Assembly: GCA_009838645.1 (NCBI GenBank)
Contig: VXRC01000024.1
Span: 144,494 to 208,493 of the forward strand
Length of the DNA stretch: 64,000 nt
Source of the DNA: Gemmatimonadota bacterium
GTDB taxonomy: Bacteria > JAAXHH01
Direction: 5' to 3'
Positions 5,622-37,815 of the stretch are shown in pieces. Within the stretch, counting starts at the first letter, position 1, and every line of letters starts with the position of its first letter. A model generated the notes under the pieces. It made no database searches. It was not told the origin of the DNA and was given only the letters and a program-made list of their open reading frames with translations. Position numbers and translations under genes: made by a program.

Positions 5622-5637
5622 TCGCAGAGGGAACCGC

Positions 5638-6615
5638 TCAATCCCGCCAGTCGAGCAGGACCCCCAGCGCTTCGCCCGGTTTCTGATAGAGCAGCGCGAA
5701 GGCCTCTGCTGCCTCGTGCCAGGGGAAACGGTGCGTGGTCATTCGATCGGTCAGGATCGCGCCCGACGCGAGGAGTTCCATGGCGCGGCGGGACTGGCGG
5801 GCCCCCGCACGCGTCCGGTAGTACCCGCCCAGTAATTTGCGCCCCTGGATTTTGTTCGAAGGCAGCGAAAGCGGCTGGTCCTCGTAGAGCCCGATCAGGT
5901 GCATCAGCCCGCCAAGGGCCAGCATGTCGAGACCCTGACCGAAGGCGGCCGGACCCGCGGGACCGCCCACGGCGTAGATCACGATATCGGCGCCGAGGCC
6001 GTTGGTCAGGCGCTTCACGGCCCTTACGGGATCTTCCTCGCGTGCGTTGATCACCGTGTCGGCGCCGCATTCCGCAGCCATGGCGCACCGGTTGGCCAGC
6101 GCGTCCACGGCCACCGCCCTGCCCACACCATTCGCCTTGATGACCTGAAGGATCAGGTTGCCCACGAGACCCTGGCCGAGCACGACCACGGTGTCATGGG
6201 GCTTGATATCCTCCAACTCCACCCAGGTGACCGCGCTGCCCGTCAGCGGATAGTAGGGGGCGCGGTCGAAGGAAAGGTCCGCCGGCATGGGCATGACGAT
6301 GGTCTGGTCCCAGGGAAAAACGAGCCGGGCCGGCCGGACCACGTACTGGGCGTGGGGCGCCAGGGCGACGACGCGATCGCCGGTTTCCAGGTGTTCGACC
6401 CCTTGCCCCAGCGCATCCACCGTCCCCGCCATGGAATAGCCCATGATGTCCGGGCTCACGGCGTGTTCCCGCGTGTACCGGCCGCCGAGTTCGGAACCCC
6501 GGCTGATGAGGCTGCACGCCGCCTTGATCCGGATCTCTCCGGGACCGGGTTCGGGAATCGGTACTTCCTCGAGTTCGATCCGGTGGAGCCCCTCGGGCTT
6601 GATGACGCGTTTCAT
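5638..6615 (-). CDS. Zinc-type alcohol dehydrogenase-like (MDR superfamily) oxidoreductase
   Basis: 325 residues from MKRVIKPEGL. The N-terminal GroES-like domain has IPEPGPGEIRIKAACSLISRGSELGG: the catalytic-zinc Cys-Gly-T-D/S segment of classical alcohol dehydrogenases is replaced by an SxISRGSE pattern, as in a zinc-free MDR subgroup annotated as 'zinc-binding dehydrogenase'. The structural-zinc cysteine loop is also absent. The Rossmann domain has VVLGQGLVGNLILQVIKANG (near 155-175), the NAD(P)-binding glycine motif. It converges on the DapA-like gene with only 16 bp between stops. The substrate is unknown; an oxidation step on the same carbohydrate-like pathway is possible but not shown. 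Confidence 0.85.
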   Translation of the reverse strand: MKRVIKPEGLHRIELEEVPIPEPGPGEIRIKAACSLISRGSELGGRYTREHAVSPDIMGYSMAGTVDALGQGVEHLETGDRVVALAPHAQYVVRPARLVFPWDQTIVMPMPADLSFDRAPYYPLTGSAVTWVELEDIKPHDTVVVLGQGLVGNLILQVIKANGVGRAVAVDALANRCAMAAECGADTVINAREEDPVRAVKRLTNGLGADIVIYAVGGPAGPAAFGQGLDMLALGGLMHLIGLYEDQPLSLPSNKIQGRKLLGGYYRTRAGARQSRRAMELLASGAILTDRMTTHRFPWHEAAEAFALLYQKPGEALGVLLDWRD

Positions 6616-6647
6616 GGTTGAGATCTGCTTTCCGTCAAACCCCAAAA

Positions 6648-7025
6648 TCAATCCAATGTGAACTTCGCCAGGGTTCTTTGTACGTCGGTGACGTCAATTC
6701 CCTTTTTGAACTCTTTCTTAACCGGCAATTCGTTACCTGAAATCCATACTTTCATCTCGGAGTCGAGATCAATCCGCCCCGCCGTCTCAAACGAAAAATG
6801 GGCGATTGACTTATACGGAATGGAGTGGTATTCGGTCTTTTTACCGGATATCCCCTGTTTATCCACCAGGATCAGCCGCCTGTCCGTGAAAGCGAACAGG
6901 TCTCTGACCAGCTTGAAGACCCTGACCAGTTTCTCATCCTCTATCAGTATCTGCGAGAACTCCTTCTCGATCTCTTCAACTTCGACCTCCGAAGCGTTGC
7001 CCATGATGGAGTTCAGAATCGACAC
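6648..7025 (-). CDS. PH domain-containing protein (bPH_1-like)
   Basis: About 125 residues. The GTG at 7025 is preferred because AGGGAGG lies just upstream and the product then starts at SILNSIMGNASEVEVEEI, the usual beginning of short bacterial PH-domain proteins; an ATG at 7073 adds 16 residues without a ribosome site. The body shows IEDEKLVRVFKLVRDLFAFTDRRLILVDKQG, a typical bPH_1 strand pattern, and ends with QRTLAKFTLD. It is probably cytosolic; the family's role is not well defined. Upstream, at 7050-7081, a 16-bp unit (TATACACTCTCTGGTT) occurs twice in tandem. Confidence 0.82.
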   Translation of the reverse strand: MSILNSIMGNASEVEVEEIEKEFSQILIEDEKLVRVFKLVRDLFAFTDRRLILVDKQGISGKKTEYHSIPYKSIAHFSFETAGRIDLDSEMKVWISGNELPVKKEFKKGIDVTDVQRTLAKFTLD

Positions 7026-7138
7026 AATGCCTCCCTGTGGTTTCTTCCGATATACACTCTCTGGTTTATACACTCTCTGGTTCTAGCTGAACAGCACCGG
7101 TTCTTCCTGAACAGTAATGCCGGTAAAGCGGCTGTCCG

Positions 7139-22016: not shown

Positions 22017-22607
22017 GTGCCGTTGCCCGTGGCCGAAAACCATCGATCCGGACCGGGACGGGATGATGCGCCGGATGACCGGCAGGAGGTCTTTCAAAGG
22101 CTCTTCGACGCGTGGCACGGACGCATCTACCAGACCTGCTTCCGGCTCATGGGACACCCGCAGGAGGCGGAGGACATCACCCAGGACGTTTTCGTACGGG
22201 CCATGCAGGCTTACGACCGGTTCCGGGGCGACGCCGACCCGGGCACGTGGCTTTACCGTATCGCGGTGAACCAGTGCCTCAACGTCCGGCGCCGAAAACG
22301 CCGGCTGCAGTGGCTGGCCCTGGACTTCTGGAACGAGGGCGTCGACGAGACGACATCGACCGGAGACCGGAGCGGCGGTGTCGAGGACGAACTTCAGCGG
22401 ACGGACCGGGAGCGCATCGTCGGGAAGGCTATCGACGCGCTCCCCGAACGGCAGCGCACGGCCCTGATCCTCTCCCATTTCGAGCGCATGTCCTACAAGT
22501 CCATAGCCGAAACCATGGACTGCACGCCTTCCGCGGTGGAGTCCCTGCTGCACCGGGCCAAGACCAATCTCGCCAGGCGCCTGCGGCCGCACCTGGGCGA
22601 GCTGTGA
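22017..22607 (+). CDS. ECF-type sigma-70 family RNA polymerase sigma factor
   Basis: About 196 residues. Region 2 (~25-95): FDAWHGRIYQTCFRLMGHPQ, EAEDITQDVFVRAMQAYDRF and TWLYRIAVNQCLN. Region 4 (~140-190): DALPERQRTALILSHFERMS, YKSIAETMDCTPSAVESLLH. Starts are GTG at 22017 or GTG four codons later, the second better spaced from GAAAGGTG. It heads a gene row: a membrane protein with anti-sigma features, a Spy-like protein, the RND adaptor and two RND pumps. This sigma factor probably controls that efflux/envelope-stress operon and its own gene. Confidence 0.92.
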   Translation: MPLPVAENHRSGPGRDDAPDDRQEVFQRLFDAWHGRIYQTCFRLMGHPQEAEDITQDVFVRAMQAYDRFRGDADPGTWLYRIAVNQCLNVRRRKRRLQWLALDFWNEGVDETTSTGDRSGGVEDELQRTDRERIVGKAIDALPERQRTALILSHFERMSYKSIAETMDCTPSAVESLLHRAKTNLARRLRPHLGEL

Positions 22608-22778
22608 TTCGTTCGCGCGGCCCCGCCGCAATACGTGGGCCGGTCCAGTCGCATCGAGTTGCACAAAAAACGAATGGATCGGGCGATCGGGTTGTCTAAG
22701 CGAACAGATAGGGACAGTCAGTGAACCGACCGCACCGTCCCACGGACCCACAGGACCATCAACAGGCGGACGAACATC

Positions 22779-23273
22779 ATGAATCAACGGTACTTCGAAG
22801 ACCGGATCATGCTCTATATCGACGGCGATCTTCCGCCCGATGAAAGGGCCCGGTGCGAAGAGTACCTGCGTTCCCATCCGCGATACCGCGAGCGGGTCGA
22901 CGCGCTTCGTCAGGCCTGGAATTCGGATAACCTGCTGAACGTGACCGGGCCTACCCTGCGACTGCGTATGCGTTTCGAGGCCGCGCTCCGGGGCGAAGAC
23001 ATCATCGAAACCGGCCCAACAGTGGGGACGCGGATCGCCTGGCTTGCCCGTCCGGCGCTGATGGCCGTTACGCTGGTCGCGGGCATCCTGATCGGGACCT
23101 ATCTCGGCAGCGGCACCAACGGAGATATGGCGGGGATCGAACCGTTACCCGTGCAAACCGGCGTAGTGGCTTACTCTTTTGCCAATGACCTGCAGGAAAT
23201 CTCATCCGAGCCGGTGGAACAGGAATTCCTGCTGCTGGACTGGGTCGAAACAGGGGACGATACCGGACGATGA
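22779..23273 (+). CDS. Putative anti-sigma factor (single membrane span)
   Basis: 164 residues. The first ~75 residues resemble the cytosolic anti-sigma domain of the zf-HC2/RseA kind (DRIMLYIDGDLPPDERARCEE and YLRSHPRYRERVDALRQAW), although only one Cys is present so zinc coordination is incomplete. A hydrophobic span follows (ALMAVTLVAGILIGTYLG, ~93-110), then a ~50-residue periplasmic tail ending in EFLLLDWVETGDD. Position directly after an ECF sigma gene supports the role. Its stop codon overlaps the next start as ATGA. Confidence 0.8.
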   Translation: MNQRYFEDRIMLYIDGDLPPDERARCEEYLRSHPRYRERVDALRQAWNSDNLLNVTGPTLRLRMRFEAALRGEDIIETGPTVGTRIAWLARPALMAVTLVAGILIGTYLGSGTNGDMAGIEPLPVQTGVVAYSFANDLQEISSEPVEQEFLLLDWVETGDDTGR

Positions 23274-23728
23274 AGAAGAAGCTGATCATATGGGGCGTGG
23301 TCCTGCTGACGGTCATCAACCTGGCTTCGCTGGCGACGCGCGCATACCATCGCTGGGGCGACGACGAGCGCCGCAGCCGGGAGGACCGGCGCGAGGCAAG
23401 GATGTCCATCACCGAACGGCTCGGCCTCACCGAGGCCCAGGTGGAACAGGTCAGGCAGATGCGGACCGAACTCGGAGATCAACTGACGCCCTACCGGGAT
23501 GGTTACCGTGAAAAACGGGACCAGTTGTACGATCTGCTCATGGCGCCGGACGTCGACCGCGGGGAGATCGACCGGGTCAAGGCGCAGATGGATTCGCTCC
23601 AGGCGGAGCGGGAAGCCATCGTCTTCGACTACATCGTGGCGCACAAGGAAGTGCTTACCCCGGAGCAGCAGACGGAATTCTTCACCATGATCAAGGAGCG
23701 GTTCCGAAGCGGATACCGTCGTAGATAG
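23270..23728 (+). CDS. Spy/CpxP-like periplasmic protein
   Basis: 152 residues. An N-terminal membrane or signal segment (MKKKLIIWGVVLLTVINLAS) is followed by a charged linker and an all-helical region with ITERLGLTEAQVEQVRQM and VLTPEQQTEFFTM: two LTxxQ-type motifs, the mark of the Spy/CpxP/ZraP group of periplasmic chaperones and metal sensors. Coupled to the anti-sigma gene by a 4-bp overlap. Such proteins feed envelope or metal stress signals to the sigma/anti-sigma pair or protect periplasmic proteins; here it may be the sensor for the efflux operon. Confidence 0.83.
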   Translation: MKKKLIIWGVVLLTVINLASLATRAYHRWGDDERRSREDRREARMSITERLGLTEAQVEQVRQMRTELGDQLTPYRDGYREKRDQLYDLLMAPDVDRGEIDRVKAQMDSLQAEREAIVFDYIVAHKEVLTPEQQTEFFTMIKERFRSGYRRR

Positions 23729-23845
23729 CGGGGCCGGCCGCGTGTGTGCCCGGGAAAGCCTGGAGGGCGTCGGAAAAAACCCGCGGCGCAGCTGGGAAAA
23801 CGTTGAAACCGGATTGTGAAGGATCTACCATCGGAGGAGCAGTTC

Positions 23846-25312
23846 ATGTTCAAGCGGCTTGGGATAAGTAAACTGGCGTACTGGCCCGTTGTGCTGGCGA
23901 TCGCAGGCGTCCTCGCCTGCGGCGGCGGCGAGGAGGAGTCGGAAGACGCGGCGCAGAATCAGCGCGGCGGCCGGCCCGGGATGGGCGCCATGGCGCGTAC
24001 CGGCGCTTCCATACCGGTGGAGGTGAAGACCGTGGGCCGCGGCAACATCGCCGCGACGCTGCTGACCTACACGTCCCTCGAGGCGGAGCGGCACGTGGAC
24101 GTGGTCTCGCGCACGCAGGGGCTCGTGAAGTCGATCCTGGTCGAGGAGGGAGACCGGGTGACGGAGGGGCAGCCGCTGGCCCAGCTCGACACCGACGCGC
24201 TGGAATTGACGCTCAGGGAGCGGGAAGTGAACATGAACAGCCTGGAATCGAACTACAAGCGGTCCCAGGAACTGTTGGAGCAGGAGCTGCTCAGCAGCCA
24301 GGAATTCGAACAGACCAAGTTCCAGTACGAGGCCGCCGCGACCCAGTACGAGTCGGCGAAGCTTCAACTGGCATACGCCACGATCCGCAGCCCTTTCTCC
24401 GGCATCGTCACGGAGCGGTTGGTCGAGGTGGGCAACCTGGTGAATGCGAATGACGTGGTATTCCGGACGGCGGATCTCGATCCGCTGCTCGCCCGCATTC
24501 ACGTGCCCGAGAAGGACATCGGACAGGTTCGGCCGGGGCAGTCGGTGCGTATCAACGTGGAAGGGTCTGACCAGACTCACACGGGCCGGGTCGCTCTGAT
24601 CAGTCCCATCGTGGATCCCGAGAGCGGCACGGTCAAGGTCACGGTGGAAATCCGGGACCGGATGGGCACGTTGAGACCGGGCATGTTTACGACGGTGAAC
24701 CTGGTGATCGCGATCCAGGATAACGTGCTGCAGGTCGAGAAGAAGGCCCTGGTAGCCGAGGCCGAGGGATCCTACGCCTTCCTGTTCCAGGACGGCACGG
24801 CAGAAAAACGGCTCCTTGAGATCGGCATCGCGGAAGGGGATTACGTGGAGGTGCTGTCGGGTCTGTCCGACGGCGACTCCATCATCACCGTGGGCCAGGA
24901 GGGACTCCGAAACGGCGCGCCCGTCCGCATCGCGGGACAGATACCGCCCGCCGCGGAAGGCATGGGCGGTGGACCGGCGGGCATGGGCGGTTCAGCCGGT
25001 GAAGCGTCCCAGGCGCCCTCCGCGCGGCCGGCGAGCGCAGGAGAAGGAACCGGCGGGTCCGGCAGGCCCGGCATGGCCGGCGCGAACCAAGGCGGCGGAC
25101 AGCCAGGCGGGATGGGCGGCGGACGCATGATGGCCATGGACCTCGACCAGATGAAGGAGCGGATGTTCCAGAACCCGGACATCAAGGCGGCTTATGACAA
25201 GCAGGTGGAAGAAGATCCGAGCTTCGCGGAAGACGAAGAAAGGCAACGTACGTTCCTTATCCAGCAGATGCGCCAGATGCGTGCGCAGCGCGGAGGGGGA
25301 CGGCAGCAGTAA
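23846..25312 (+). CDS. RND efflux periplasmic adaptor (membrane fusion) lipoprotein
   Basis: 488 residues from MFKRLGISKLAYWP; this ATG has CGGAGGAG 6 bases upstream. A lipobox (AIAGVLAC) predicts a lipoprotein. The lipoyl/barrel-sandwich parts flank a coiled-coil hairpin: TLLTYTSLEAERHVDVVSRT, GLVKSILVEEGDRVTEGQPL, then ELTLREREVNMNSLESNYKR and YATIRSPFSGIVTERLVEVG, followed by the beta-barrel (IHVPEKDIGQVRPGQSVRI). Odd: after ~residue 370 a Gly/Met/Pro-rich low-complexity segment of ~75 residues leads to a helical, Met/Gln-rich C-terminus (MKERMFQNPDIKAAYDKQ; RQMRAQRGGG). It would link the two downstream RND permeases to an outer-membrane channel, which is not in the window. Confidence 0.93.
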   Translation: MFKRLGISKLAYWPVVLAIAGVLACGGGEEESEDAAQNQRGGRPGMGAMARTGASIPVEVKTVGRGNIAATLLTYTSLEAERHVDVVSRTQGLVKSILVEEGDRVTEGQPLAQLDTDALELTLREREVNMNSLESNYKRSQELLEQELLSSQEFEQTKFQYEAAATQYESAKLQLAYATIRSPFSGIVTERLVEVGNLVNANDVVFRTADLDPLLARIHVPEKDIGQVRPGQSVRINVEGSDQTHTGRVALISPIVDPESGTVKVTVEIRDRMGTLRPGMFTTVNLVIAIQDNVLQVEKKALVAEAEGSYAFLFQDGTAEKRLLEIGIAEGDYVEVLSGLSDGDSIITVGQEGLRNGAPVRIAGQIPPAAEGMGGGPAGMGGSAGEASQAPSARPASAGEGTGGSGRPGMAGANQGGGQPGGMGGGRMMAMDLDQMKERMFQNPDIKAAYDKQVEEDPSFAEDEERQRTFLIQQMRQMRAQRGGGRQQ

Positions 25313-25354
25313 CATGTACGCTCTATCAACTTTCACATTCGTGGGAGGTGAGTT

Positions 25355-25819
25355 ATGCGTTGTTTGATCATTGCACTCATATTGGTGATTGCGTTACCGG
25401 CCGCGGCCCAGGACGATCAGAAACTCGAGGAACTGATCCAGCGGTCCCTGACCTTGGAAAGCCCCGATCCGGCCAAGCTGGAAGAGGTCGAAAAACAGTT
25501 TCGGACCGCCTATGCGAAACTGCACGAACTGTGCAACTGCGAACCGGCCGATATAGGCGAGGTGCTGGCCACTGCATGGGATGAAGTGCGGAAGGCGGAA
25601 TTCAAGGACGGTTTCCTCGAGACGGTCGAGATGTTTCAACTGACGCTGGACGGCGTTCGCGGCGAGCTGGATTCGGCCGGCGCATACACGCCGTCGCTTC
25701 AGATATGTCAGCAGTATGCAGACCTCTACGTCTCCGCCCGCCGCGAGGCGCCGACCATGGATGACGCGCGAAAGGCGCTGGTCGAGATGATTCACAATCT
25801 GATCGGCGACGAGCATTGA
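25355..25819 (+). CDS. Secreted protein of unknown function in the RND operon
   Basis: 154 residues with a clear signal peptide (MRCLIIALILVIALPAAAQ) and GGGAGGTG upstream of the ATG. The mature part is acidic and helical: LEELIQRSLTLESPDPAKLE, LHELCNCEPADIGEVLATAW with two cysteines in CNC, and DARKALVEMIHNLIGDEH. No known domain recognised. It lies between the adaptor (42 bp) and the first pump (27 bp) and is surely co-transcribed; it may be a periplasmic accessory or sensing factor. Confidence 0.75.
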   Translation: MRCLIIALILVIALPAAAQDDQKLEELIQRSLTLESPDPAKLEEVEKQFRTAYAKLHELCNCEPADIGEVLATAWDEVRKAEFKDGFLETVEMFQLTLDGVRGELDSAGAYTPSLQICQQYADLYVSARREAPTMDDARKALVEMIHNLIGDEH

Positions 25820-25846
25820 AACGAAAGGTAACACGGTAAAGGATTC

Positions 25847-28800
25847 ATGAAAATTATCGGTTTCTCCATCGGCAGGCCCGTGACGATCATCATGCTGATG
25901 ACAGCGATGCTGCTCTTCGGCACCATCGCCTTCTCGCGGTTGCCCATCAATCTGCTCCCGGACATCACGTACCCGACCCTGACGGTGCGCACCGAGTATG
26001 TCGGCGCCGCGCCGAACGAGATCGAAAACCTCATCTCCGAGCCCATCGAAGAGGCGGTGGGCGTGGTGACCGGCGTGGTACGCGTCAGCTCCATTTCCCG
26101 CCCCGAGCGGTCCGACGTCATCCTGGAGTTCGAGTGGGGCACCAACATGGATTTCGCCAGCCTGAACGTGCGGGAGAAGATCGACCTGCTCAACCTGCCC
26201 CAGGCGGCGGAGAAACCCATCCTCCTCCGATTCGACCCGAGCCTCGATCCCATCCTGCGCATCGCGCTGTCCGGCAACGAAAGCCTCACCGCCCTGCGGA
26301 TCATGGCGGAAGAGGAGATCAAGCGCGAGCTGGAAGCCCTCGAGGGCGTCGCCGCCGTCAAGATCAGCGGCGGCCTGGAAGAGGAGATCCACGTGGAACT
26401 GAACGAGTCCCGGCTGGCCAGCCTCGGCATACCCATCACCCAGGTGGCCACCCGGCTCGAGCAGGAGAACGTCAATCTCGCGGGCGGCACCATCAAGGAC
26501 GGCGAGACGGAATACCTGGTGCGCATCCTGAACGAGTTCCAGGCCGTGGACGAGATCGGCGACATCATCGTCGGGCAGGTCAACACCGTGCCCATCCTGC
26601 TATCCGACGTCGCCTCCGTTACGAAAAGTCACAAGGAACGCAAGCTTTCCGCCCGGATCAACGGCCGGGAGAGCATCGAGATCGCCATCTACAAGGAAGC
26701 CGGGACCAATACGATCCAGGTGGGCGAGGTGGTCAAGAACCGGCTGAACTCGGTGCGGGAGACCGTGGCTGGACTCACCTCCGGGGTGAACCTGGAGGTC
26801 GTCTTCGACCAGTCGATCTTCATCCAGCAGTCGGTGGACGAGGTGCTCAAGACGGCCATGTACGGCGGTATCCTCGCCATCCTGGTCCTGTACCTTTTCC
26901 TGCGCAGCTCGAGCAGTCTCATCATCGGGGTTTCCATCCCCATCTCGGTGGTCACCACCTTTTTCTTCCTCTACGCCTTTGACGTTTCGCTCAACATCAT
27001 GTCCCTCGGCGGCCTGGCCCTGGGGGTCGGGATGCTGGTGGACAACTCCATCGTGGTCCTGGAAGGCATCGACCGGCACCGGAGGCGAGGGGGCGACCAG
27101 CCCGTTGCGGAGCGGGTGCGCCTCGGCGCGTCCGAGGTTGGACAGGCCGTCGTAGCCGCAACGCTGACCACGGTGTGCGTGTTCGTGCCCATCGTCTTCG
27201 TGGAAGGCATCGCCGGGCAGTTGTTCCGGGACCTGGCGCTGGCCGTTACCTTTTCGCTCATCGTGGCCACCCTGGTGGCCGTCACCCTGATCCCGGTCAT
27301 ATCGTCGATCCTGCACCGCGACCGGGAAGCGCTCGCGGCCGACGGAGACGACCTGTCCGCGAAGGAACCGACCACGGCGATGGGCAGGATCCGGTCCGTG
27401 ATCGGGACCGTCTGGACCGTATTCTCCCGTGGGCTGGGATACATCGTAACCGGCGTATTCTACCTCGTCAGGTGGGTGCTCTTCTCGGTCTGGGGACTGG
27501 TGCGCGTCGTGCTCTGGCCTGCGGGCTGGCTGTTCGACCGTATCTTCCCGATCATCCGCCGGGCCTACCCGCCTTTCCTGCGCTGGGCCCTGGCCAACCG
27601 CGTGCTTACGCTGTTTACCGGGACCGCCCTGCTGGCGGGCTCCCTTTATGTCGTCCCCACGATCGGCATCGAGCTGATCCCCCAGATGAGCCAGGGCGAG
27701 TTTTTCGTCAACGTGAAGCTGCCCGTGGGCACGCCGCTGCCCGTAACCGAGGACGCGTTGAATCGCATGTCGGAGATCGCCGGGGACTACCCTGAAGTAA
27801 GCACGGTGTACGTGCTGGCGGGAACCATGGGTCAATCCGGCGGAAACGCGGGCGAGGAGCGGGAGAACATCGGCCAGTTGCACATCCGGCTGGAACCAGG
27901 CCTACGCGGCGCGGTGGAAGAGGACGTCATGAACCGCCTGCGGGACAGCTTCGCGCCCATTCCGGGCATCGAAGCGCCCGAGTTCGCCCGTCCCGCGCTC
28001 TTCAGCTTCAAGAACCCGGTGGAGGTGGAAGTCAGCGGGTACAACCTCACCCGTCTCACGGAAGTCTCCGAGGAACTCGCGGCGGAGATGTCCACGGTAC
28101 CCGGCCTGACCGACGTGAAAGCCAGCATGGAGGGCGGGAATCCCGAAGTGCAGATCCTCTTCGACCGCCGGAAGCTCGCCAACCTGGGACTCAATCTGGG
28201 CACGGTCACCCAGATCGTGCAGAACAAGGTCCAGGGCAACGTGGCCACGGAGCTCACCCGCCGCGACCGGAAGATCGACATCCGCGTGTGGGCGGAGGAC
28301 GAGACCCGGCTGAGCCTGGACGCCATACGGCGGCTCGTGGTGAACCCGGAGGGCACGGTGCCGGTGCCGCTGGCGGCCGTGGCGGAAGTCCGCGTCGCCC
28401 AGGGTCCGAGCGAGATCCGGCGGGTCAACCAGCAGCGGGTGGCCATCGTGTCCGCGGGTCTTACGGAACGTTCGCTCGGTGACGCGGCCGAAGACATCCA
28501 GGGAATTATAGACGGCTTCATGCTGCCCATCGATTTTGTGGTGGGTATCAAGGGGCAGAACGAGGAAATGCAGGTGGCCTTCGCAAGCCTGCAGTTCGCC
28601 ATTCTGCTCTCGATCTTTCTCGTCTACCTGGTCATGGCGTCCCAGTTCGAATCGTTGCTCCATCCCTTCGTGATCATGTTCACTTTCCCCTTCTCGATCA
28701 TCGGCGTGGTCGCGACGCTGGTGCTCACGGGCCAGACGATCAGCGTCGTCGTGCTGATCGGGGTGATCATGCTTACCGGGATCGTGGTGAACAACGCCAT

Positions 28801-29137
28801 CGTACTGGTGGACTATATCAACCAGCTGCGACGCAGGGGCACGGAACTGCAGGAGGCCATCGTCGAGGCGGCGCAGACGCGCCTCTGGCCCATTATGATG
28901 ACGACGGCGACCACGGTCCTCGGTCTGCTTCCGATGGCCATCGGCGTCGGTGAAGGCGCCGAGTTGCGCGCGCCCATGGCCATCACCGTGATCGGCGGCC
29001 TGATCGCCGGAACGATGGTGACGCTGGTCCTGGTGCCGCTCATCTACATGACGATCGAGTCGGCCATGGCAAGAGTGTACGGGCTGTTTACAAGAACCGC
29101 CGGGCAACCGGTGTCCCAGGAGGTGGTAGAAGCATGA
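25847..29137 (+). CDS. RND family efflux permease (HAE-1/AcrB-like), first of two
   Basis: 1096 residues. The start MKIIGFSIGRPVTIIMLMTA and the repeated halves (YPTLTVRTEYVGAAPNEIEN; SIPISVVTTFFFLYAFDVSL; LGGLALGVGMLVDNSIVVLE; and in the second half VLIGVIMLTGIVVNNAIVLV) are typical of proton-driven RND pumps; the Asp in MLVDNSIVV is the expected proton-relay position in TM4. Odd: about residues 510-575 contain an additional hydrophobic, Trp-rich stretch (GYIVTGVFYLVRWVLFSVWG, then VVLWPAGWLFDRIF) between the two halves, making it longer than most. Overlaps the next gene by 4 bp (ATGA). Substrate unknown; drug, metal or lipid-like compounds are possible. Confidence 0.95.
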   Translation: MKIIGFSIGRPVTIIMLMTAMLLFGTIAFSRLPINLLPDITYPTLTVRTEYVGAAPNEIENLISEPIEEAVGVVTGVVRVSSISRPERSDVILEFEWGTNMDFASLNVREKIDLLNLPQAAEKPILLRFDPSLDPILRIALSGNESLTALRIMAEEEIKRELEALEGVAAVKISGGLEEEIHVELNESRLASLGIPITQVATRLEQENVNLAGGTIKDGETEYLVRILNEFQAVDEIGDIIVGQVNTVPILLSDVASVTKSHKERKLSARINGRESIEIAIYKEAGTNTIQVGEVVKNRLNSVRETVAGLTSGVNLEVVFDQSIFIQQSVDEVLKTAMYGGILAILVLYLFLRSSSSLIIGVSIPISVVTTFFFLYAFDVSLNIMSLGGLALGVGMLVDNSIVVLEGIDRHRRRGGDQPVAERVRLGASEVGQAVVAATLTTVCVFVPIVFVEGIAGQLFRDLALAVTFSLIVATLVAVTLIPVISSILHRDREALAADGDDLSAKEPTTAMGRIRSVIGTVWTVFSRGLGYIVTGVFYLVRWVLFSVWGLVRVVLWPAGWLFDRIFPIIRRAYPPFLRWALANRVLTLFTGTALLAGSLYVVPTIGIELIPQMSQGEFFVNVKLPVGTPLPVTEDALNRMSEIAGDYPEVSTVYVLAGTMGQSGGNAGEERENIGQLHIRLEPGLRGAVEEDVMNRLRDSFAPIPGIEAPEFARPALFSFKNPVEVEVSGYNLTRLTEVSEELAAEMSTVPGLTDVKASMEGGNPEVQILFDRRKLANLGLNLGTVTQIVQNKVQGNVATELTRRDRKIDIRVWAEDETRLSLDAIRRLVVNPEGTVPVPLAAVAEVRVAQGPSEIRRVNQQRVAIVSAGLTERSLGDAAEDIQGIIDGFMLPIDFVVGIKGQNEEMQVAFASLQFAILLSIFLVYLVMASQFESLLHPFVIMFTFPFSIIGVVATLVLTGQTISVVVLIGVIMLTGIVVNNAIVLVDYINQLRRRGTELQEAIVEAAQTRLWPIMMTTATTVLGLLPMAIGVGEGAELRAPMAITVIGGLIAGTMVTLVLVPLIYMTIESAMARVYGLFTRTAGQPVSQEVVEA

Positions 29138-32100
29138 GCATTGCCGAATTTTCCGTAAACCGACCGGTGACGACGATCATGATCATCGTCAGTGTCGTCA
29201 CCCTGGGCATGATTTCCTATACCAAGCTGCCGCTGATGTTCCTGCCGGACATGTCCTTCCCGTCCCTGAACGTCAGCGTGCCGTATCCTTCCTCGTCGCC
29301 CGAGGAAGTGGAACGGCTGATCACGCGGCCGCTGGAGGACGCCTTCGGCACACTGAGCAACATGAAGAGCATGGAGTCCCGTTCCAACGACGACAACGCG
29401 CGGGTCCGCATCGAGTTCGAGACGGGGACGGACATGAACATGGCGGCCATGGAGGTCCGGGACCGGATCGACCAGGTCCGGGGTGAACTGCCCGACGACG
29501 TCGAACGCATAACCATCCGGCGCTGGAACCCGAACGATATGCCCATCTACAACTTCAGCGTCGCATGGAGCGGGGACCCCGCCGAGTTCTACAACATCGT
29601 CACCAAGGTGATCCAGCCGCGCATCCAGCGCGTGGACGGCGTGGCGAACGTTGAAATCAGCGGGATGATCGACAAGCAGTTGCTCGTGCACGTGGACAGC
29701 GAGAAGCTGCAGTCCCACAACCTCGATCTGTTCAATCTCAGCCAGACCCTGACGCAGAACAACGTCACCATGACGGCCGGGACCGTCACCGAGGGCGGGA
29801 AGAAGTACTCGGTGCGTTCCGTGAACGAGTACCGGGCCGCCGAAGAGGTGGCGAACCTGCCCATACCGGGCACGACCCTTTCGCTCCGCGACGTGGCGGA
29901 GGTAAAGTACGACTATCCGGAAGACAACAGTTTCCAGCGCCTGAACGGGGTCGACGCGGTCACGATCCGGGTGTACAAGACGTCTACAGCCAACATCGTG
30001 GACGTGGCGCAGCGCACCCAGTCCGTGCTGGACGAACTCGTGACGCAGCCCCAGTTCGCGGACCTTGAAACGCGGGTCTTCTTCGACCAGTCGCAGAGCA
30101 TATCGGACCGGCTTTCGGACCTGCGGAACACGGGACTGCTGGGTGGCATGCTGGCCGTCATCGTGCTGTTCCTCTTCTTGCGGAACGTGCGGAGCACCAT
30201 GATCATCGGCCTGGCGATCCCCATATCGATCATCTGCACCTTCACCTTCATGTACCTGCTGCGCCAGGGCGCCGGGTCCACGGTTTCCATCAACCTGATC
30301 TCGCTCATGGGCCTGATGCTGGCGGTAGGCATGCTCGTGGACGCGGCCGTCGTGGTGCTCGAGAGCATCTACCGGCATCGCCAGGAGGGCAACCTGCCGG
30401 CTCGGATCGCGGCTGTCGTGGGTACCCGCGAGGTAACCATGGCCATCATCGCGGCCACGGCGACGACTCTTTGCGTGTTCATGCCCCTGGTCTTCCTGGG
30501 CGGCGGCAGCCGGTTCATGCTCTTCATGAAGGACTTCGTCGTCACCTTCTGCATCGTCATGGTCGCGGCCGTCTTCATCGCGCTGACGCTCATACCGCTG
30601 GTATCGTCGAGGCTGTTCAACCGGCCGTTGGGCAAGCCCTCGGCGTTCTTCGCGAGGCTGTCGGGCTTGTACACGACGGTCCTGGCCTGGAACCTCAAGC
30701 ACCGTTTCGTCACGGTAGTTTCCTTCGCCGCGATCCTCTACGGCAGCTACTGGCTGTACCAGAACATCGAGACGGAGTTCCAGCCCATGGCGCCGACGCG
30801 GGACATCGCGATAGCCGCGGACCTGCCGGGCAGCTACAACATCGAGGACGTCAAGGCCGTATTCACGGACGTGGAGACGCTCCTGCTGGACCGCAAGGAG
30901 GACTTCCACATCGAATCCATTTCGTCCTACGGCAGCCTGCGCCGGGCCAATATCCGCATCGTGCTGACTCCGCCGGAGGAGCGGCAGGAGTCGGCCACGC
31001 AGCTTCAGACCCGGATCACCAGGGCGCTGCCTGAAATCGCCGGCGTACAGTGGAGACCCGGTCGCATGCGGCGTTACGGCGGCGGGCAGTCGGGTGTGGA
31101 CGTCGAGCTGAAGGGCGACAACATGGCGGTGCTTTCCAACATCGCCCAGGATATCCGGACCCGGATGGAGGTCATCCCGGGCCTCAAGGACGTGGATACC
31201 AGCCTGGAGCGGGGCGACGAAGAGATCCAGGTACAGGTCGACCGGGCCGTGGCGCAGACGTACGGGATCTCGCCGAGGCAGGCTGCCCGTACGGTACAGG
31301 CGGCGCTGAGCAGCCGGGCGCGGGGCAAATTCAAGGCCGACGACCGCGAGGTGGATATCCTGCTGCACCTCGAGGAAGAGGACCGCGCCAGCATGCAGAA
31401 GCTGCAGAACATGACGTTCGAGCGGGCCGAAGGCGGCATGATCCCCGTGGGGAACCTGGCCAGTTTCTCCAGGCAGAAGGGACCCGACGCCATCGAGCGG
31501 AAGGACCGGGAATCACAAGTTGAAGTGGGCGGAAACACGACAGGGCCGGGCACGCGTGCCATAAACACCCAGGTGACGGAGATGATGGAAAGCATTGAAC
31601 TGCCGCCGGGCTATTCGTGGAACATGGGGCGCAATTTCAACATGATGCGGGAGTCCCAGGGCGAGTTCCTCTTCGCCATCATGCTGTCCGTGGTCCTGAT
31701 CTACCTGATCATGGCGGCCATATCGGAGTCCTTCATCCAGCCCTTCACGATCCTGTTGTCGGTGCTCTGCGGACTGGTGGGCGCCTTCATCGTGTTCTAC
31801 CTGTCGGGGACGACGCTGAACACGAACTCGTACCTCGGGGTCATCGTGCTATCCGGACTGGCGGTCAACAATGCCATTGTGCTCATCGACCACGTGAACC
31901 ATTTGCGCCGGGAGGGGATGACCCGCACGGAGGCCCTGCTCCTGGGCGGCCGGCACCGGTTGCGGCCGATCCTGATGACGTCGCTGACGACCATCTTCGG
32001 CCTGCTGCCCATGGTGGCCCCACTCCTCTTCCCCGAGTTCTTCGGTCCCGTGGAAGATCGCGGCGCCAACCAGTGGGGCCCGGTCAGCCTGGCCCTGGTG

Positions 32101-32214
32101 GGCGGCCTGACCACTTCCGGCATCCTGACGCTCATCCTGCTGCCGACGGTCTACACCATCTTCGAGGACCTGAGCAACTGGGTCACGTCGAGCGTCAAGC
32201 GGGCCTGGGCGTAG
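29134..32214 (+). CDS. RND family efflux permease, second of two
   Basis: 1026 residues, RND superfamily. MSIAEFSVNRPVTTIMIIVS opens TM1; LMGLMLAVGMLVDAAVVVLE is the TM4 region, and YLGVIVLSGLAVNNAIVLID its counterpart in the second half. Compared with the first pump it has the normal length and MLVDAAVVV in place of MLVDNSIVV. Translationally coupled to the first permease through an ATGA overlap. Paired RND genes after one adaptor suggest a hetero-trimeric pump (as in MdtBC) rather than two separate systems. A strong terminator follows its stop. Confidence 0.95.
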   Translation: MSIAEFSVNRPVTTIMIIVSVVTLGMISYTKLPLMFLPDMSFPSLNVSVPYPSSSPEEVERLITRPLEDAFGTLSNMKSMESRSNDDNARVRIEFETGTDMNMAAMEVRDRIDQVRGELPDDVERITIRRWNPNDMPIYNFSVAWSGDPAEFYNIVTKVIQPRIQRVDGVANVEISGMIDKQLLVHVDSEKLQSHNLDLFNLSQTLTQNNVTMTAGTVTEGGKKYSVRSVNEYRAAEEVANLPIPGTTLSLRDVAEVKYDYPEDNSFQRLNGVDAVTIRVYKTSTANIVDVAQRTQSVLDELVTQPQFADLETRVFFDQSQSISDRLSDLRNTGLLGGMLAVIVLFLFLRNVRSTMIIGLAIPISIICTFTFMYLLRQGAGSTVSINLISLMGLMLAVGMLVDAAVVVLESIYRHRQEGNLPARIAAVVGTREVTMAIIAATATTLCVFMPLVFLGGGSRFMLFMKDFVVTFCIVMVAAVFIALTLIPLVSSRLFNRPLGKPSAFFARLSGLYTTVLAWNLKHRFVTVVSFAAILYGSYWLYQNIETEFQPMAPTRDIAIAADLPGSYNIEDVKAVFTDVETLLLDRKEDFHIESISSYGSLRRANIRIVLTPPEERQESATQLQTRITRALPEIAGVQWRPGRMRRYGGGQSGVDVELKGDNMAVLSNIAQDIRTRMEVIPGLKDVDTSLERGDEEIQVQVDRAVAQTYGISPRQAARTVQAALSSRARGKFKADDREVDILLHLEEEDRASMQKLQNMTFERAEGGMIPVGNLASFSRQKGPDAIERKDRESQVEVGGNTTGPGTRAINTQVTEMMESIELPPGYSWNMGRNFNMMRESQGEFLFAIMLSVVLIYLIMAAISESFIQPFTILLSVLCGLVGAFIVFYLSGTTLNTNSYLGVIVLSGLAVNNAIVLIDHVNHLRREGMTRTEALLLGGRHRLRPILMTSLTTIFGLLPMVAPLLFPEFFGPVEDRGANQWGPVSLALVGGLTTSGILTLILLPTVYTIFEDLSNWVTSSVKRAWA

Positions 32215-32265: not shown

Positions 32266-32313
32266 AAAAACGCCCGTCTCCGGGAACGATCATTCCGGAG
32301 ACGGGCATTTTTT
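32266..32313. terminator. Bidirectional rho-independent terminator
   Basis: A perfect 12-bp stem, GCCCGTCTCCGG at 32272-32283 and CCGGAGACGGGC at 32295-32306, with an 11-base loop. Six T residues follow on the plus strand and five A residues precede it, so it can stop both the RND operon and the convergent sigma-ankyrin gene. Confidence 0.9.
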
Positions 32314-32368: not shown

Positions 32369-34657
32369 CTAGCCACCGTTCATGCGATCCCGCAGCAAAG
32401 CCACCACCTCCCCGTGGCCTTCCTTCTCGGCACCGTAGAGCGGTTGGGCCCAGACCGACTCGGCCGGTACGGTCGGATTGGCGCCCTGGCCCAGCAGGAA
32501 ACGCACCATTTCCGTCTTCCCGCTGCGCGCCGCTGCCGCCAGGGGTGTTCCCCCGTATTCGAGCTCGATCGCATCGATGTCGGCACCGAGTTCCAGGAAA
32601 GCACGAGCCGCCGCGACATCGCCCTTTTCGGCACAGCCGTGCAGAAAGGTCCGGCCGATCCAGTTGGCGCGGCACAGGTCGAGGCCGTGGCCGGCCAGGG
32701 TGCGGATCATATCGGGATCCGAGGGGTAGTTTCCACCCCATATGTCCGTCAGACGGAAAAGATCGCCGACGTCCGGCGTGTTTTCCAGAAAGACGTTGAT
32801 GAGTTCGGCATTGTTCCGTCCCATTAACTCATGCAGAAACTGAGGATGCGAAACGACGGCTCCTCCCTCGCGCACGGCCCGTTCCAGTTCCGAATCGTCC
32901 ACCATGGCAAAGGGCGGCGTCACGGCGCCATACTCGTGCAACATGGCCTGCATCCGATGGCCGTCTGTGCCATGATTGTACTCGACAGTAGTCAAACAAG
33001 ATCCGGATGAGTCCACCTCGGCGTTTGGATCGGCACCGCGTTCGAGCAGCAGTTTCGCCGTCTCAATGTGGTTGCCCGAGCAGGCGCCGAACAGTGCCCC
33101 GCCGCGCGGTGCGTTTTCTTCCGGCAGGTTGGGGTCGGCACCCAGGTCCAGCAGTTTTTCGACGATCTGTGTGTGTCCCCTGCCAGCGGCATAGGCAAGC
33201 GGACTGCGTCTGCCGGCATCGAGCGTGCGGGCCAGGACCGGGTTGGACGCCAGTACCGCATCGACCCGGTTCTCATCGCCGGCCGCACAGGCGACGCTCA
33301 GGGCGTATTCCGCGCCGCAGGCGAGAAGGTGCCGCGTGATGACCCAGGTATCTTTCGGGGCCTCCGCCGGCAGATCGCGCGATCGGAACCAGTAGTCCCC
33401 GTTGAGTGAGACCAGCAGTGGGGTCTGGCCGTCGGCGCGGCGGGCTTCCAGGTTGGCGCCCCGCGCGACGAAGAGATTCACCAGGTCGTTCTGCCGCGTG
33501 ATCACCGCCCAGTGCAGGGGGCCGTTGCCCAATGCGTCTGATGCGTGTATCAAGTTGGCCCGGGCGGCCAGCACCACCTCCACACGCGCATGGTCACGGC
33601 TTTTTATCGCGTCCGCCAGCTCCTCGAAAGCTGGATCGTACCCGAATCGTTCCCGCATCGCCGCCTCGAGCAGCGCCTGTACACTGTTGAAGCCGCGCTC
33701 CTGCGAGATGTCCAGCAGCTTGTCCCACGAATTGTACGTATATCGCGACTGGCCCGGGTCGGCACCGGCCTGCAACAGCAGTTGGACCACCTCGGCATGG
33801 CCCTCGCGCACTGCCATGTGGATGGGAAACTGATACCAGTACTGGGCATTGACCAGCATGGGGTCGCGGTCCAGCATCGCGCTGACCCGCGCCAGGTCGC
33901 CTGCTCCGCTGGCGCAAAACAACGCCCAGGCCTGGTGGCCGTCTACGGCTTCGATCCCATACTGGTAGCGTTCGGTCTTCAGGTCATCGGGCTGGAGCAG
34001 ACTTGCGATCCGTTGCGCGAAGCGATCGTCGCGCGAGGGTGCCTGTCCAGGTATTTCCCTTTCAGCCATTTTCATCATCTCCTTTCGTAGCCGTTTGCGA
34101 GCCGATCGCAGCCGGTTGTTGACCGTCGACGCCGACAGGCCCAAAAACGAGCCGACTTCCCGGTGCGAATACGTCGAAATGTAGAACAGCAGGACCGACA
34201 TGCGCTCTTCGTCGGGCAACCGGCCTATCGCGGCCATGACCCGGGTTTTCTCATCACGCGACTCCAGTTCCTCTCCCGGGTCGGCCGTCACCAGCGATCC
34301 CACCGTCGCCAGCGATTGAGCCGCCACCAGCGTTTCCGCCGCCGCGTGTTCGATGGCCGCAGCATGCTCGATCGCGACGGGTTGCCGCTTGCGCAATACA
34401 CGGCTGCAGCGCATGAAGACGATCCGCTTGAACCATCCTGGAAACGCAGCCGGTTCGTGCAGGCGCGGCAGTTCGGTCCAGGCGCCGACGAAGGCCTCCT
34501 GTGCGGCGTCTTCGGCCAGGTGGAAATCGCCCAGCAGGGCGGAGGCGTAGCCCACCGCCATGTCCTGGAACCGGAGGACGATGTCGTCGTAGGCCGCGCG
34601 GTCGCCGGTCTGGGCACGGACGACCAGTGAAGAGAGATTGGATTCGCTCATAGGCAT
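32369..34657 (-). CDS. Sigma-70 (ECF-like) factor fused to ankyrin repeats
   Basis: 762 residues in one uninterrupted frame. Residues 1-190 are a complete ECF-type sigma factor: region 2 with YDDIVLRFQDMAVGYASALL, FHLAEDAAQEAFVGAWTELP and FPGWFKRIVFMRCSRVLRKR; a linker with a small internal repeat (AIEHAAAIEHAAAE); region 4 with RLPDEERMSVLLFYISTYSH and REVGSFLGLSASTVNNRLRS. From ~225 to the end run many ankyrin units of the 'G-x-TPLHxAA-x-x-G-H/N-x-x-VxxLL-x-x-GAD' type, e.g. PIHMAVREGHAEVVQLLLQA, PLAYAAGRGHTQIVEKLLDL, GALFGACSGNHIETAKLLLE, PLAAAARSGKTEMVRFLLGQ. No membrane span. Ankyrins likely bind a protein ligand or the sigma domain itself, acting as built-in control. It starts 68 bp after the end of the glnE-like gene on the same strand. 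Confidence 0.92.
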   Translation of the reverse strand: MPMSESNLSSLVVRAQTGDRAAYDDIVLRFQDMAVGYASALLGDFHLAEDAAQEAFVGAWTELPRLHEPAAFPGWFKRIVFMRCSRVLRKRQPVAIEHAAAIEHAAAETLVAAQSLATVGSLVTADPGEELESRDEKTRVMAAIGRLPDEERMSVLLFYISTYSHREVGSFLGLSASTVNNRLRSARKRLRKEMMKMAEREIPGQAPSRDDRFAQRIASLLQPDDLKTERYQYGIEAVDGHQAWALFCASGAGDLARVSAMLDRDPMLVNAQYWYQFPIHMAVREGHAEVVQLLLQAGADPGQSRYTYNSWDKLLDISQERGFNSVQALLEAAMRERFGYDPAFEELADAIKSRDHARVEVVLAARANLIHASDALGNGPLHWAVITRQNDLVNLFVARGANLEARRADGQTPLLVSLNGDYWFRSRDLPAEAPKDTWVITRHLLACGAEYALSVACAAGDENRVDAVLASNPVLARTLDAGRRSPLAYAAGRGHTQIVEKLLDLGADPNLPEENAPRGGALFGACSGNHIETAKLLLERGADPNAEVDSSGSCLTTVEYNHGTDGHRMQAMLHEYGAVTPPFAMVDDSELERAVREGGAVVSHPQFLHELMGRNNAELINVFLENTPDVGDLFRLTDIWGGNYPSDPDMIRTLAGHGLDLCRANWIGRTFLHGCAEKGDVAAARAFLELGADIDAIELEYGGTPLAAAARSGKTEMVRFLLGQGANPTVPAESVWAQPLYGAEKEGHGEVVALLRDRMNGG

Positions 34658-34724: not shown

Positions 34725-36302
34725 TCACATCGCCGAGTAGAAGACCCGGTCGTAGACCTGGTGGACACGAGCGGTGTGTTTTCCGTAGGCTTCGAGCATT
34801 CGTCCGGGGCCGGCTTCCCGCTCGTCGCGGGTGGGGCCGGACAGTCCCATCATGCCGGCCAGGACGGCCTGTGCGCCGTGTTCCCGGGGGATCTCATGGG
34901 TCTGGTGGCCCGATGTCATCTGGATGCGGTTCTCCAGGTCCCGCAGGAAGAGATAGGCTTCGTCCAGGTCGGACGCCTCTTCATCGGATAGATACCCCTT
35001 TTCCGCCAGCGCGGTCAGCATCCTTCGGGTGCCCCGTTCCCAGGGCCAGCCCTGGAACCCGGCGTACACCAGCTGGAATCCCTGGGCGATGAACTCGATC
35101 TCCCGGATGCCGCCCTTCCCCAGCTTGACGTGGTAGTCGCCGCTGCCCCGTTCGATCAGCGCCTTCGCGATACGTTCCCGCATATGGTTTATATCTTCCA
35201 GGATCAACGGCTGGTCGAGGGCGGGGTAGAACACGAAGGGCTGGATCGTGTCGAGAAACCGGCCTCCCACCTCGCTGCTCCCCGCTGAGTGCCGGGCCTT
35301 CAGGAGCGCCTGGCGCTGCCAGGCCTGTCCCTGGATCTCGTAGTGCCAGCGGTAGCCTTCGATCGAGTTGGCGATGTCGCCGGCCCTCCCCTCCGGACGC
35401 AGGCGCAGGTCGACGCGGAAAACCTGGCCGTCCGGCGTGAGCCGGCTGATGAGGTCGGTGATTGCCCGGGCGAGCTTCGGGTAGTACTCGTAGGTGGAGG
35501 TCCCGTCCTTCTCGGTGCGTCCGTTCGTGACATCGTAGACATAGAGCAGGTCGATGTCCGAGCTGAAGTTCAGGTCCCGGCCACCCAGCTTCCCCATGCC
35601 GATGACGGCGAAGCCGCTCGGCTTCGATCCCTCGAGCATCGGCCGGCCGTGACGGGCCTGCAGTTTCGCGCCGCACACGTCGTGGGCCGCCTGGAGGCAG
35701 AGGTCGGCCACGTCCGTGAGCCGTTCCAGGACCGCCGGCGTACCGGACTGCCGCATCAGGTCGCACACGGCGATGCGCAGGTAGGCCTGCTGCTTGAACG
35801 TGCGGAGGGGTTTCATGGCCTCGTCCGGCGTAGACACGCCGTCGAGCATGCCCGCCAGTACCGCGTCCAGTTCTTCCGCTGGCTGCAATGCGCGCCACGC
35901 ATCGCCCGCGAAAGTGTCGAGCAGGAATCCCACGTCCTGGACGAGCGTCGTGGTGAGGTAAGGGCTGGCCGAAAGGATCGTGAGCAGCGCGTCCCGGGAT
36001 TCCGACGGCGCGGCCAGAAGGTCCATCAGGGCCGGGACCTGCGTGTCACCGCTTCGCGTAATGAGCGCGTGCATGCTGATGAGGGCCCGGTCGGGTTGCA
36101 GGGAACTGCCCGCCGCCTCGGCCAGTGCCGGAATGAGGTGCTCCGGGGCGCTCACGCCAAGCGGGGCCAGCCGCGCATCGATCTGTCCCAGCATGCGCCA
36201 GGCGTCTTCCGGTTGCTCGAATCCAGAGGCGCGCAGTTGGTCGGATACTGCGGCCGGCAACGGCGAGGAAAGCGCGTCGCGGTTAAATGAGAGGGTCGTC
36301 AT
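34725..36302 (-). CDS. glnE: Half-length GlnE: N-terminal glutamine synthetase deadenylylase domain only
   Basis: 525 residues against ~950 for full GlnE. The nucleotidyltransferase motif FAVIGMGKLGGRDLNFSSDI with DIDLLYVYD, the segment RVDLRLRPEGRAGDIANSIE and the following helical part (LGKGGIREIEFIAQGFQLVY, YLFLRDLENRIQMTSGHQTH) match the N-terminal adenylyl-removing half of E. coli GlnE, which has SSDIDL where the C-terminal half has DSDLDL. The protein ends naturally after RVHQVYDRVFYSAM; nothing downstream in any frame looks like the C-terminal adenylyltransferase half, and the next gene is the sigma-ankyrin fusion. By homology it would remove AMP from glutamine synthetase by phosphorolysis. 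The cognate glnA lies immediately upstream. Confidence 0.88.
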   Translation of the reverse strand: MTTLSFNRDALSSPLPAAVSDQLRASGFEQPEDAWRMLGQIDARLAPLGVSAPEHLIPALAEAAGSSLQPDRALISMHALITRSGDTQVPALMDLLAAPSESRDALLTILSASPYLTTTLVQDVGFLLDTFAGDAWRALQPAEELDAVLAGMLDGVSTPDEAMKPLRTFKQQAYLRIAVCDLMRQSGTPAVLERLTDVADLCLQAAHDVCGAKLQARHGRPMLEGSKPSGFAVIGMGKLGGRDLNFSSDIDLLYVYDVTNGRTEKDGTSTYEYYPKLARAITDLISRLTPDGQVFRVDLRLRPEGRAGDIANSIEGYRWHYEIQGQAWQRQALLKARHSAGSSEVGGRFLDTIQPFVFYPALDQPLILEDINHMRERIAKALIERGSGDYHVKLGKGGIREIEFIAQGFQLVYAGFQGWPWERGTRRMLTALAEKGYLSDEEASDLDEAYLFLRDLENRIQMTSGHQTHEIPREHGAQAVLAGMMGLSGPTRDEREAGPGRMLEAYGKHTARVHQVYDRVFYSAM

Positions 36303-36399: not shown

Positions 36400-37815
36400 C
36401 TAGATGTCGTAGTAGAGTCCGAACTCCCACGGGTGCGGACGCAGGCGAATCTGGTCCAGCTCGTTCTCCCGCTTGTAATCGAGATAGGTCTCGACCAGGT
36501 CGGGCGTGAACACGTCGCCCTTGAGGAGGTATTCGTGATCGTCCTCCAGGGCGTCCAGCGCCTCGCCGAGGTCCTGCGGCGTGTGGGACACTTCCGCGGC
36601 CTGTTCCGGCTCGAGATCGTAGAGGTCGAGGTCGATCGGCTCCGGCGGCTCGATCCGGTTCTCGATGCCGTCCAGGCCGGCCATCATCATGGCCGTGAAC
36701 GCCAGGTAGGGATTGGCGCCCGGATCCGGCGTGCGGAACTCGATCCGCTTGGCCTTCTCGCTCTTCGAGTACATGGGGATCCGCACGCAGGCGCTTCGGT
36801 TGCGCTGCGAGTAGATCAGGTTGATCGGCGCTTCGTAACCCGGGACGAGTCTCCGGTAGGAGTTGGTCGTCGGCGCGGCGAAGGCCAGCACGGAGGCGCA
36901 GTGATGGAGCAGGCCGCCGATGTAGTGCCGGGCCATGTCGCTCAGGTCGGCGTACGTGCCGGCCTCGAAGAAGAGGTTCTTGCCTTCCTTCCAGAGGCTC
37001 TGGTGCACGTGCATGCCCGAACCGTTGTCCTCGAAGATCGGTTTCGGCATGAAGGTCACCGTCTTGCCAGCCTGCCGGGCGACGTTCTTGACGATGTACT
37101 TGTACATGAGCAGGTCGTCGGACATGCGCAGCAGCGTGTTGAAGCGGATGTCGATCTCGGCCTGCCCCGCCGTGCCCACCTCGTGGTGGTGCACTTCCGA
37201 CTCGATGCCCATGCTCCGGAGCGTCAGCACCATGCGCGTGCGCAGGTCCTGGTGGGTGTCGTTGGGGGGCACGGGGAAATACCCGCGCTTGTAGGGGATC
37301 TTGTTGCCGAGGTTGGGGCTCTCGGCCCGTCCCGTGTTCCACCAGCCCTCGCCGGCGTCGACCCGGTGGAAGCTGGCGTTCGGCTTCTGGGCGAACCGCA
37401 CGTCGTCGAAGATGTAGAACTCGGCTTCCGGACCGAAGTAGGCCGTGTCCGCGATGCCCACGGACTGCATGTAGGCCTCGGCCTTCTGGGCGACGTACCG
37501 CGGGTCGCGCGTGTACATTTCAAGCGTCACCGGGTCCTTGACGTTGCAGACCAGGATCAGCGTCTTCGCCTCCATGAAGGGATCGATCTTGGCCGACAGC
37601 GGGTCCGGGATCAGGATCATGTCGCTCTTGTCGATGGTCTGGAATCCCCGAACGCTCGAACCGTCGAACCCGACACCTTCTTCGAAAGTGTCTTCTTCCA
37701 GCGTTTCGATCGGCGCCGAGAAATGCTGCCAGGTTCCCGGTACGTCGATGAACCGGAAGTCGACCATTTCCGCGCCCTGGTCCCTAGCGAATGCGATTAC
37801 GTCAATTGGGGTCAC
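36400..37815 (-). CDS. glnA: Type I glutamine synthetase
   Basis: 471 residues, the usual GSI length. Landmarks: [44 protein letters not shown] with [32 protein letters not shown] and [11 protein letters not shown]. The adenylylation segment is intact: Tyr399 in [11 protein letters not shown] aligns with the AMP-accepting Tyr397 of E. coli, so this is the GSI-beta type controlled by GlnE. The start is GTG with GGGAGGAGC upstream. It makes glutamine from glutamate and ammonia in the cytosol as a dodecamer. The neighbouring gene encodes only the AMP-removing half of GlnE. Confidence 0.96.

Follow-up and report, generated by a model that had tools for sequence, protein, structure and literature searches.

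The gene at 32369..34657 on the minus strand of the window (the whole 64,000-nucleotide stretch analyzed) encodes a 762-aa protein in which an ECF sigma factor is joined, in one open frame, to a long ankyrin-repeat array (ATG at 34657, stop ending at 32369). By analogy with the TPR-tailed ECF42 factors, we give about an even chance to the reading that this is a true ECF sigma factor of the one-component kind, with a C-terminal array of ~15 repeats that senses a cytoplasmic partner protein. The array would stand in for an anti-sigma factor. A cytoplasmic protein would bind it, and binding would activate or silence the sigma half by way of the linker at residues 192-239, which comes directly after the sigma-4 helices. 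Less certainly, the array may also be made alone, from an ATG at codon 197 with its own ribosome-binding site inside the gene, and this free form would buffer the switch by competing for the partner. The replacement of an anti-sigma factor by a C-terminal extension is published logic for ECF factors (PMC8999054, PMC8103513), and protein-binding models have been published for ECF42 (TPR) and ECF57 (WD40) (PMC8999054). By analogy with these models, the self-contained regulator proposed by an earlier sequence-only reading can fairly be inferred.

Architecture and integrity of the fused gene

The 762-codon ORF contains both sigma regions and the repeats announced by the sequence-only reading, and the domain search that it recommended matched the Sigma70_r2, Sigma70_r4_2, and Ank families alike (Pfam). 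Sigma70_r2 (PF04542; residues 27-92; 34382..34579, minus strand) scored 40.7 bits against a cut-off of 24, and Sigma70_r4_2 (PF08281; residues 139-190; 34088..34243, minus strand) scored 42.1 bits against 25.7. The protein also matched TIGR02937 at 73.8 bits, above the cut-off of 42.9. Since sigma70 region 3 found no Pfam match in the protein and regions 2 and 4 are present, the domain content is that of an ECF (sigma70 group 4) factor. The junction or linker that follows (residues 191-239; 33941..34087, minus strand) carries APSRDxxFxxRV, a motif common to stand-alone array proteins. The array itself (residues ~240-760; 32378..33940, minus strand) was delimited by Pfam, an AlphaFold2 model, and Foldseek, and its Ank_2, Ank, Ank_3, and Ank_4 matches reached 92-126 bits (Ank_2, 126 bits). 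In the AlphaFold2 model, built on an alignment of 37 relatives (mean pLDDT, 85.6; pTM, 0.75), confidence was low mainly at the sigma-2/sigma-4 linker (residues 92-124). A helix at residues 192-205 leads out of sigma-4, and from residue 240 on there is a regular run of ~15 helix pairs, whose best Foldseek matches in the PDB are ankyrins and DARPins (E values down to 6e-14). The C-terminal repeats are, by both profile and fold, ankyrins. Because ankyrin arrays bind proteins, a property established for the fold, the reading of the tail with the best support is partner sensing of the kind proposed for the TPR tails of ECF42.

The frame is intact in seven distinct copies: that of this genome, those of five congeners (L030-L034; 84-95% identity), and that of the more distant record JAJEIO010000024.1 (L059). 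Three identical duplicates of congener copies in the public collection (L057, L058, and L060) were left out of this count. The glnE and RND neighbors are retained around the gene in the congeners. Ratios of dN to dS (NG86) were 0.03-0.12 for sigma-2, 0.03-0.42 for sigma-4 (mostly 0.1-0.3), and 0.12-0.24 for the ankyrin array, values low enough to indicate that both halves are maintained and functional under purifying selection. The seven intact copies and the low dN/dS together rule out that two genes were joined by an assembly or sequencing error, a reading to which we leave practically no probability. No record of this gene supports such a join; the N gaps of L064 and L068 and the frame change in the head of L065 concern other records. 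Thus, the statement that the frame holds no stop, frameshift, or poor join stands.

The window gene also looks mosaic when its copy (L017) is set against L030 and L033, as its 5' sigma end is nearest L033, most of its array is nearest L030, and a further switch lies near nucleotides 1800-2100 of the gene. This pattern suggests recombination within the genus.

Arrays with and without a sigma head

The taxonomic survey proposed at the outset found the fusion in other families of the phylum, but it also revealed the array without a sigma head in several lineages, which the sequence-only reading had missed. Also overlooked were a second sigma-ankyrin gene, a cluster of ankyrin genes, and the ribosome-binding site with its in-frame ATG at the junction. 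The second sigma-ankyrin gene of this genome (L018, contig 49) is 40% identical to the window gene over its full length and has orthologues in the congeners searched; together with a sigma-less homologue (L019), it lies in an ankyrin-gene-rich region. There, ~12 ankyrin-repeat ORFs, L018 and L019 included, occupy both strands between 527 and 572 kb of contig 49 (L010, L027, and L028). An internal stop in this paralogue was discarded, since the matches reach the end of the array and the one TAG/TAA flagged by the search looks like the terminal stop.

The phylum has more distant sigma-ankyrin proteins in further families and orders (L043, L077, L079, L080, and L081), and a Poribacteria-labeled contig from a public genome collection (L068) carries a sigma factor plus array, its sigma part containing Ns. 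The closest named relatives are MAGs labeled Latescibacterota or Gemmatimonadetes; these phylum labels conflict with one another and were therefore not relied upon. Some of the MAG names we take to belong to sponge metagenomes, from which a sponge setting of this genome might be inferred.

In ten loci (L061, L062, L063, L066, L067, and L069-L073), the match to the protein begins at about residue 192 or 220, with 46-80% identity, and the frames of these stand-alone arrays begin near the first repeat. A split-off sigma gene adjoining them was rejected, since tblastn found no sigma-like sequence in up to 6 kb of flank. A tree of 50 arrays, obtained by a quick search and having long branches, requires eight changes between the fused and stand-alone states, and well-supported branches force at least five of these. 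One tight cluster is mixed, with L059 fused and L061, L063, and L067 unfused. Furthermore, the motif APSRDxxFxxRV, which follows sigma-4 in the fused relatives, is retained in that or a close form by the stand-alone proteins L061, L062, L066, L067, and L070. This linker motif and the mixed cluster suggest that stand-alone arrays descend from fused ancestors through loss of the head.

The occurrence of the stand-alone array in so many relatives makes partner binding probably a sigma-independent property of the array. In the alignment, Y275, R321, S550, G552, and W736, which are not part of the ankyrin consensus, show no or almost no variation across fused and stand-alone proteins; as they are kept with or without the sigma head, a conserved partner surface seems to be common to both forms.

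The main rivals of partner sensing are masking by the array itself and a reading in which the array comes first, and the stand-alone proteins bear on both. As in ECF41 and the IutY-like fusions, the array could be an intramolecular inhibitor, a built-in anti-sigma that packs on regions 2 and 4 and is relieved by a ligand or by proteolysis. Fusions of sigma and anti-sigma factors are published (PMC8999054), no anti-sigma gene adjoins this one, and the ribosome-binding site and ATG at the junction look like a former two-gene overlap. However, arrays lacking any sigma-like sequence within a flank of up to 6 kb (L061, L062, L066, L069, L071, and L073) would be odd for a dedicated inhibitor, and Pfam found no zf-HC2-type anti-sigma domain in the 762-aa protein; we consider such masking rather unlikely. 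Alternatively, the array could be the working module, acting on cell or host proteins, with an expendable and repeatedly lost sigma head that mainly controls its expression or location. Stand-alone arrays under several phylum labels, the at least five state changes that the tree forces, and the ankyrin-gene cluster on contig 49 would fit this, and the enrichment of ankyrins in candidate phylum PAUC34f and Poribacteria relative to Latescibacteria (PMC7081726) also counts in its favor. We nevertheless judge it improbable, given the strong purifying selection on the sigma half where that half is present and the start of the predicted free product, MAEREIPGQ, in which no secretion signal is evident by eye.

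A candidate start site at the junction

The coding sequence contains a Shine-Dalgarno-like AAAGGAG at 34079-34085 (minus strand), and 9 nt beyond it lies the in-frame ATG of Met197 (34067-34069, minus strand), a candidate site for initiating a free ankyrin protein of 566 aa. Read on the minus strand, the boundary sequence is CTA CGA AAG GAG ATG ATG AAA ATG GCT GAA. Several stand-alone relatives start at a position equivalent to the codon 197 region. In L061, L062, L066, L067, and L070, an equivalent ATG lies near the start of the frame, with a purine-rich sequence upstream (AAAGGGAG in L066, AGAAAGGG in L070, and AGAGGG/AAAGGG in L061, L062, and L067). No ATG occupies the corresponding position in the paralogue L018.

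A set of 106 ORFs from this genome supplied 754 internal in-frame ATGs for comparison; it is a non-random sample of otherwise ordinary ORFs in which the sigma loci were deliberately included. Only three of these ATGs had AAGGAG at that spacing, all of them at sigma-fusion junctions, and 12 of the 754 had a Shine-Dalgarno consensus match of six or more bases. The anti-Shine-Dalgarno sequence was assumed, since the pattern tried for the 3' end of the 16S rRNA gave no match. With the amino acids around the site fixed (Arg-Lys-Glu), synonymous resampling produced the ribosome-binding site at the junction in 48% of draws (P = 0.48), and so lends no independent support to selection on the site in this gene. 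Codon-level support was limited to the L011/L093 family (contig 1; P = 0.025 and 0.005). A scan for synonymous constraint across the seven orthologues did not single out the junction either; synonymous divergence was lowest in the windows at residues 558-574 and 14-28. In this copy, as in most orthologues, third-position GC reaches its lowest level in the gene near the junction.

Three more ECF sigma factors of the same genome have long C-terminal domains (~290-430 aa) without a Pfam match, two of them on contig 25 (L009:2974-4917 and 5202-7079) and one on contig 1 (L011:4354-5784). All three have an in-frame ATG and a Shine-Dalgarno-like sequence at the domain boundary, namely, GAAAAGGAG-TCTATCGCC-ATG and CAGGAG-ACTATCGCC-ATG on contig 25 and AGAAGGAG-TACGGCC-ATG on contig 1. 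Relatives keep such boundary sites, which recur throughout a second sigma-fusion family, and a third family has them in both of its members.

From its sequence, a free array product starting at codon 197 is plausible. The broader proposal is that internal ribosome-binding sites at sigma/tail boundaries let these genes produce the tail alone alongside the fusion, giving a regulator and a competing sensor, and that the head could be shed by way of the internal start. We hold this only tentatively, as a possibility that falls somewhat short of even.

Genomic setting and known systems

A glnE-type gene on the same strand (34725..36302, minus strand) ends 67 bp upstream of the sigma-ankyrin gene and is itself preceded by glnA, encoding glutamine synthetase (36400..37815, minus strand). 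On the other side of the sigma-ankyrin gene, a terminator-like hairpin (32272..32306) separates it from the convergent RND genes. As the sequence-only reading stated, no anti-sigma gene adjoins it, the neighbors being the convergent RND pump and glnE/glnA, and the contrasting pair that it pointed out upstream is indeed present, as the ECF sigma and zf-HC2 anti-sigma genes of the RND pump (22017-22607 and 22779-23273). The plus-strand region from 22017 to 32214 forms one array of ECF sigma, zf-HC2 anti-sigma, Metal_resist/LTXXQ-type protein, and RND efflux genes. No terminator-like site is listed between glnE and the sigma-ankyrin gene, so a shared transcript with glnE is possible; a link to nitrogen is a guess. 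The GlnE-type protein itself is only 525 aa long and combines a single GlnE domain with a single UTase-type domain. Bacterial GlnE is usually about twice that length.

Of the 11 genomes of the genus that were examined around glnE, this one included, six contain the sigma-ankyrin gene. Two others (L101 and L103) keep a 21-nt piece just downstream of glnE, CGGATCGTCTTCATGCGCTGC, which is sigma region-2 coding sequence and marks a deletion scar; in the remaining three, glnE runs directly into the intergenic region of the pump. The gene, missing from five of the 11 genomes, is therefore dispensable within the genus. This loss, with its two 21-nt sigma remnants, and the abundance of ankyrins in the genome would suit an accident of domain shuffling with no special regulatory meaning. 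We consider that very unlikely, as sigma-ankyrin fusions are common to several families of the phylum and to the Poribacteria-labeled contig, and dN/dS is low.

Among known systems, ECF42 (Sven_0747 and P. putida ECF-10) offers a close parallel to the partner sensing proposed here, with sigma-2 and sigma-4 followed by C-terminal helical protein-interaction repeats and no anti-sigma factor. However, its TPR extension has ~200 aa, whereas the tail here is ankyrin and ~520 aa long, and a YCII-type gene is absent among the genes adjoining the sigma-ankyrin gene. The C-terminal TPR extension typical of ECF42 is missing, as the tail matched ankyrin and no TPR model. ECF57 likewise has a C-terminal repeat array proposed to bind proteins, but its repeats are WD40-like rather than ankyrin, and no WD40 model matched the 762-aa protein. 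ECF41 (SnoaL) and ECF238/CorE share the use of a C-terminal extension in place of an anti-sigma factor; their SnoaL-like or metal-binding cysteine-rich domains differ from the repeat array found here, and the protein has no Pfam match to a SnoaL-like domain, the C-terminal domain of ECF41 and ECF56.

Two other cases bring sigma70 and ankyrin together in one chain. In cyanobacterial sigma70 proteins, Ank_2 is a listed accessory domain that makes up 5.59% of the accessory domains counted (PMC11119718); the likeness lies in domain content, in another phylum and in proteins that were counted there, not characterized. MzaA of the MZA anti-phage system (NCBIfam NF041931) combines both segments in one profile but in the reverse order, with the ankyrin part N-terminal and the sigma part C-terminal, and the sigma genes of this genome that its sigma segment matches are the longer primary-type ones rather than the ECF. 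The window protein scored 61 bits against the NF041931 cut-off of 800, no protein of the genome exceeded that cut-off, and no MZA operon partners lie beside the gene, whose neighbors are RND pump genes, glnE, and glnA. An MZA defense sigma was thus rejected by score, domain order, and neighbors.

The bare combination of sigma70 and ankyrin is therefore already known (PMC11119718; MzaA profile). Our literature search on ECF-ankyrin fusions found nothing beyond the cyanobacterial catalogue (PMC11119718), and ankyrin is unmentioned in two ECF reviews (PMC8999054, PMC8103513). The apparently new features are the long array carried by an ECF head in this lineage, the repeated separation of head and array, and the candidate start site at their junction. 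Repeat-tailed ECF factors are an acknowledged gap, as extensions are found in many ECF groups but partners are known for few of them. The occurrence of this array with and without a sigma head in related genomes offers a natural separation of partner binding from transcription control, and initiation at codon 197 provides a simple test for two products from such genes.
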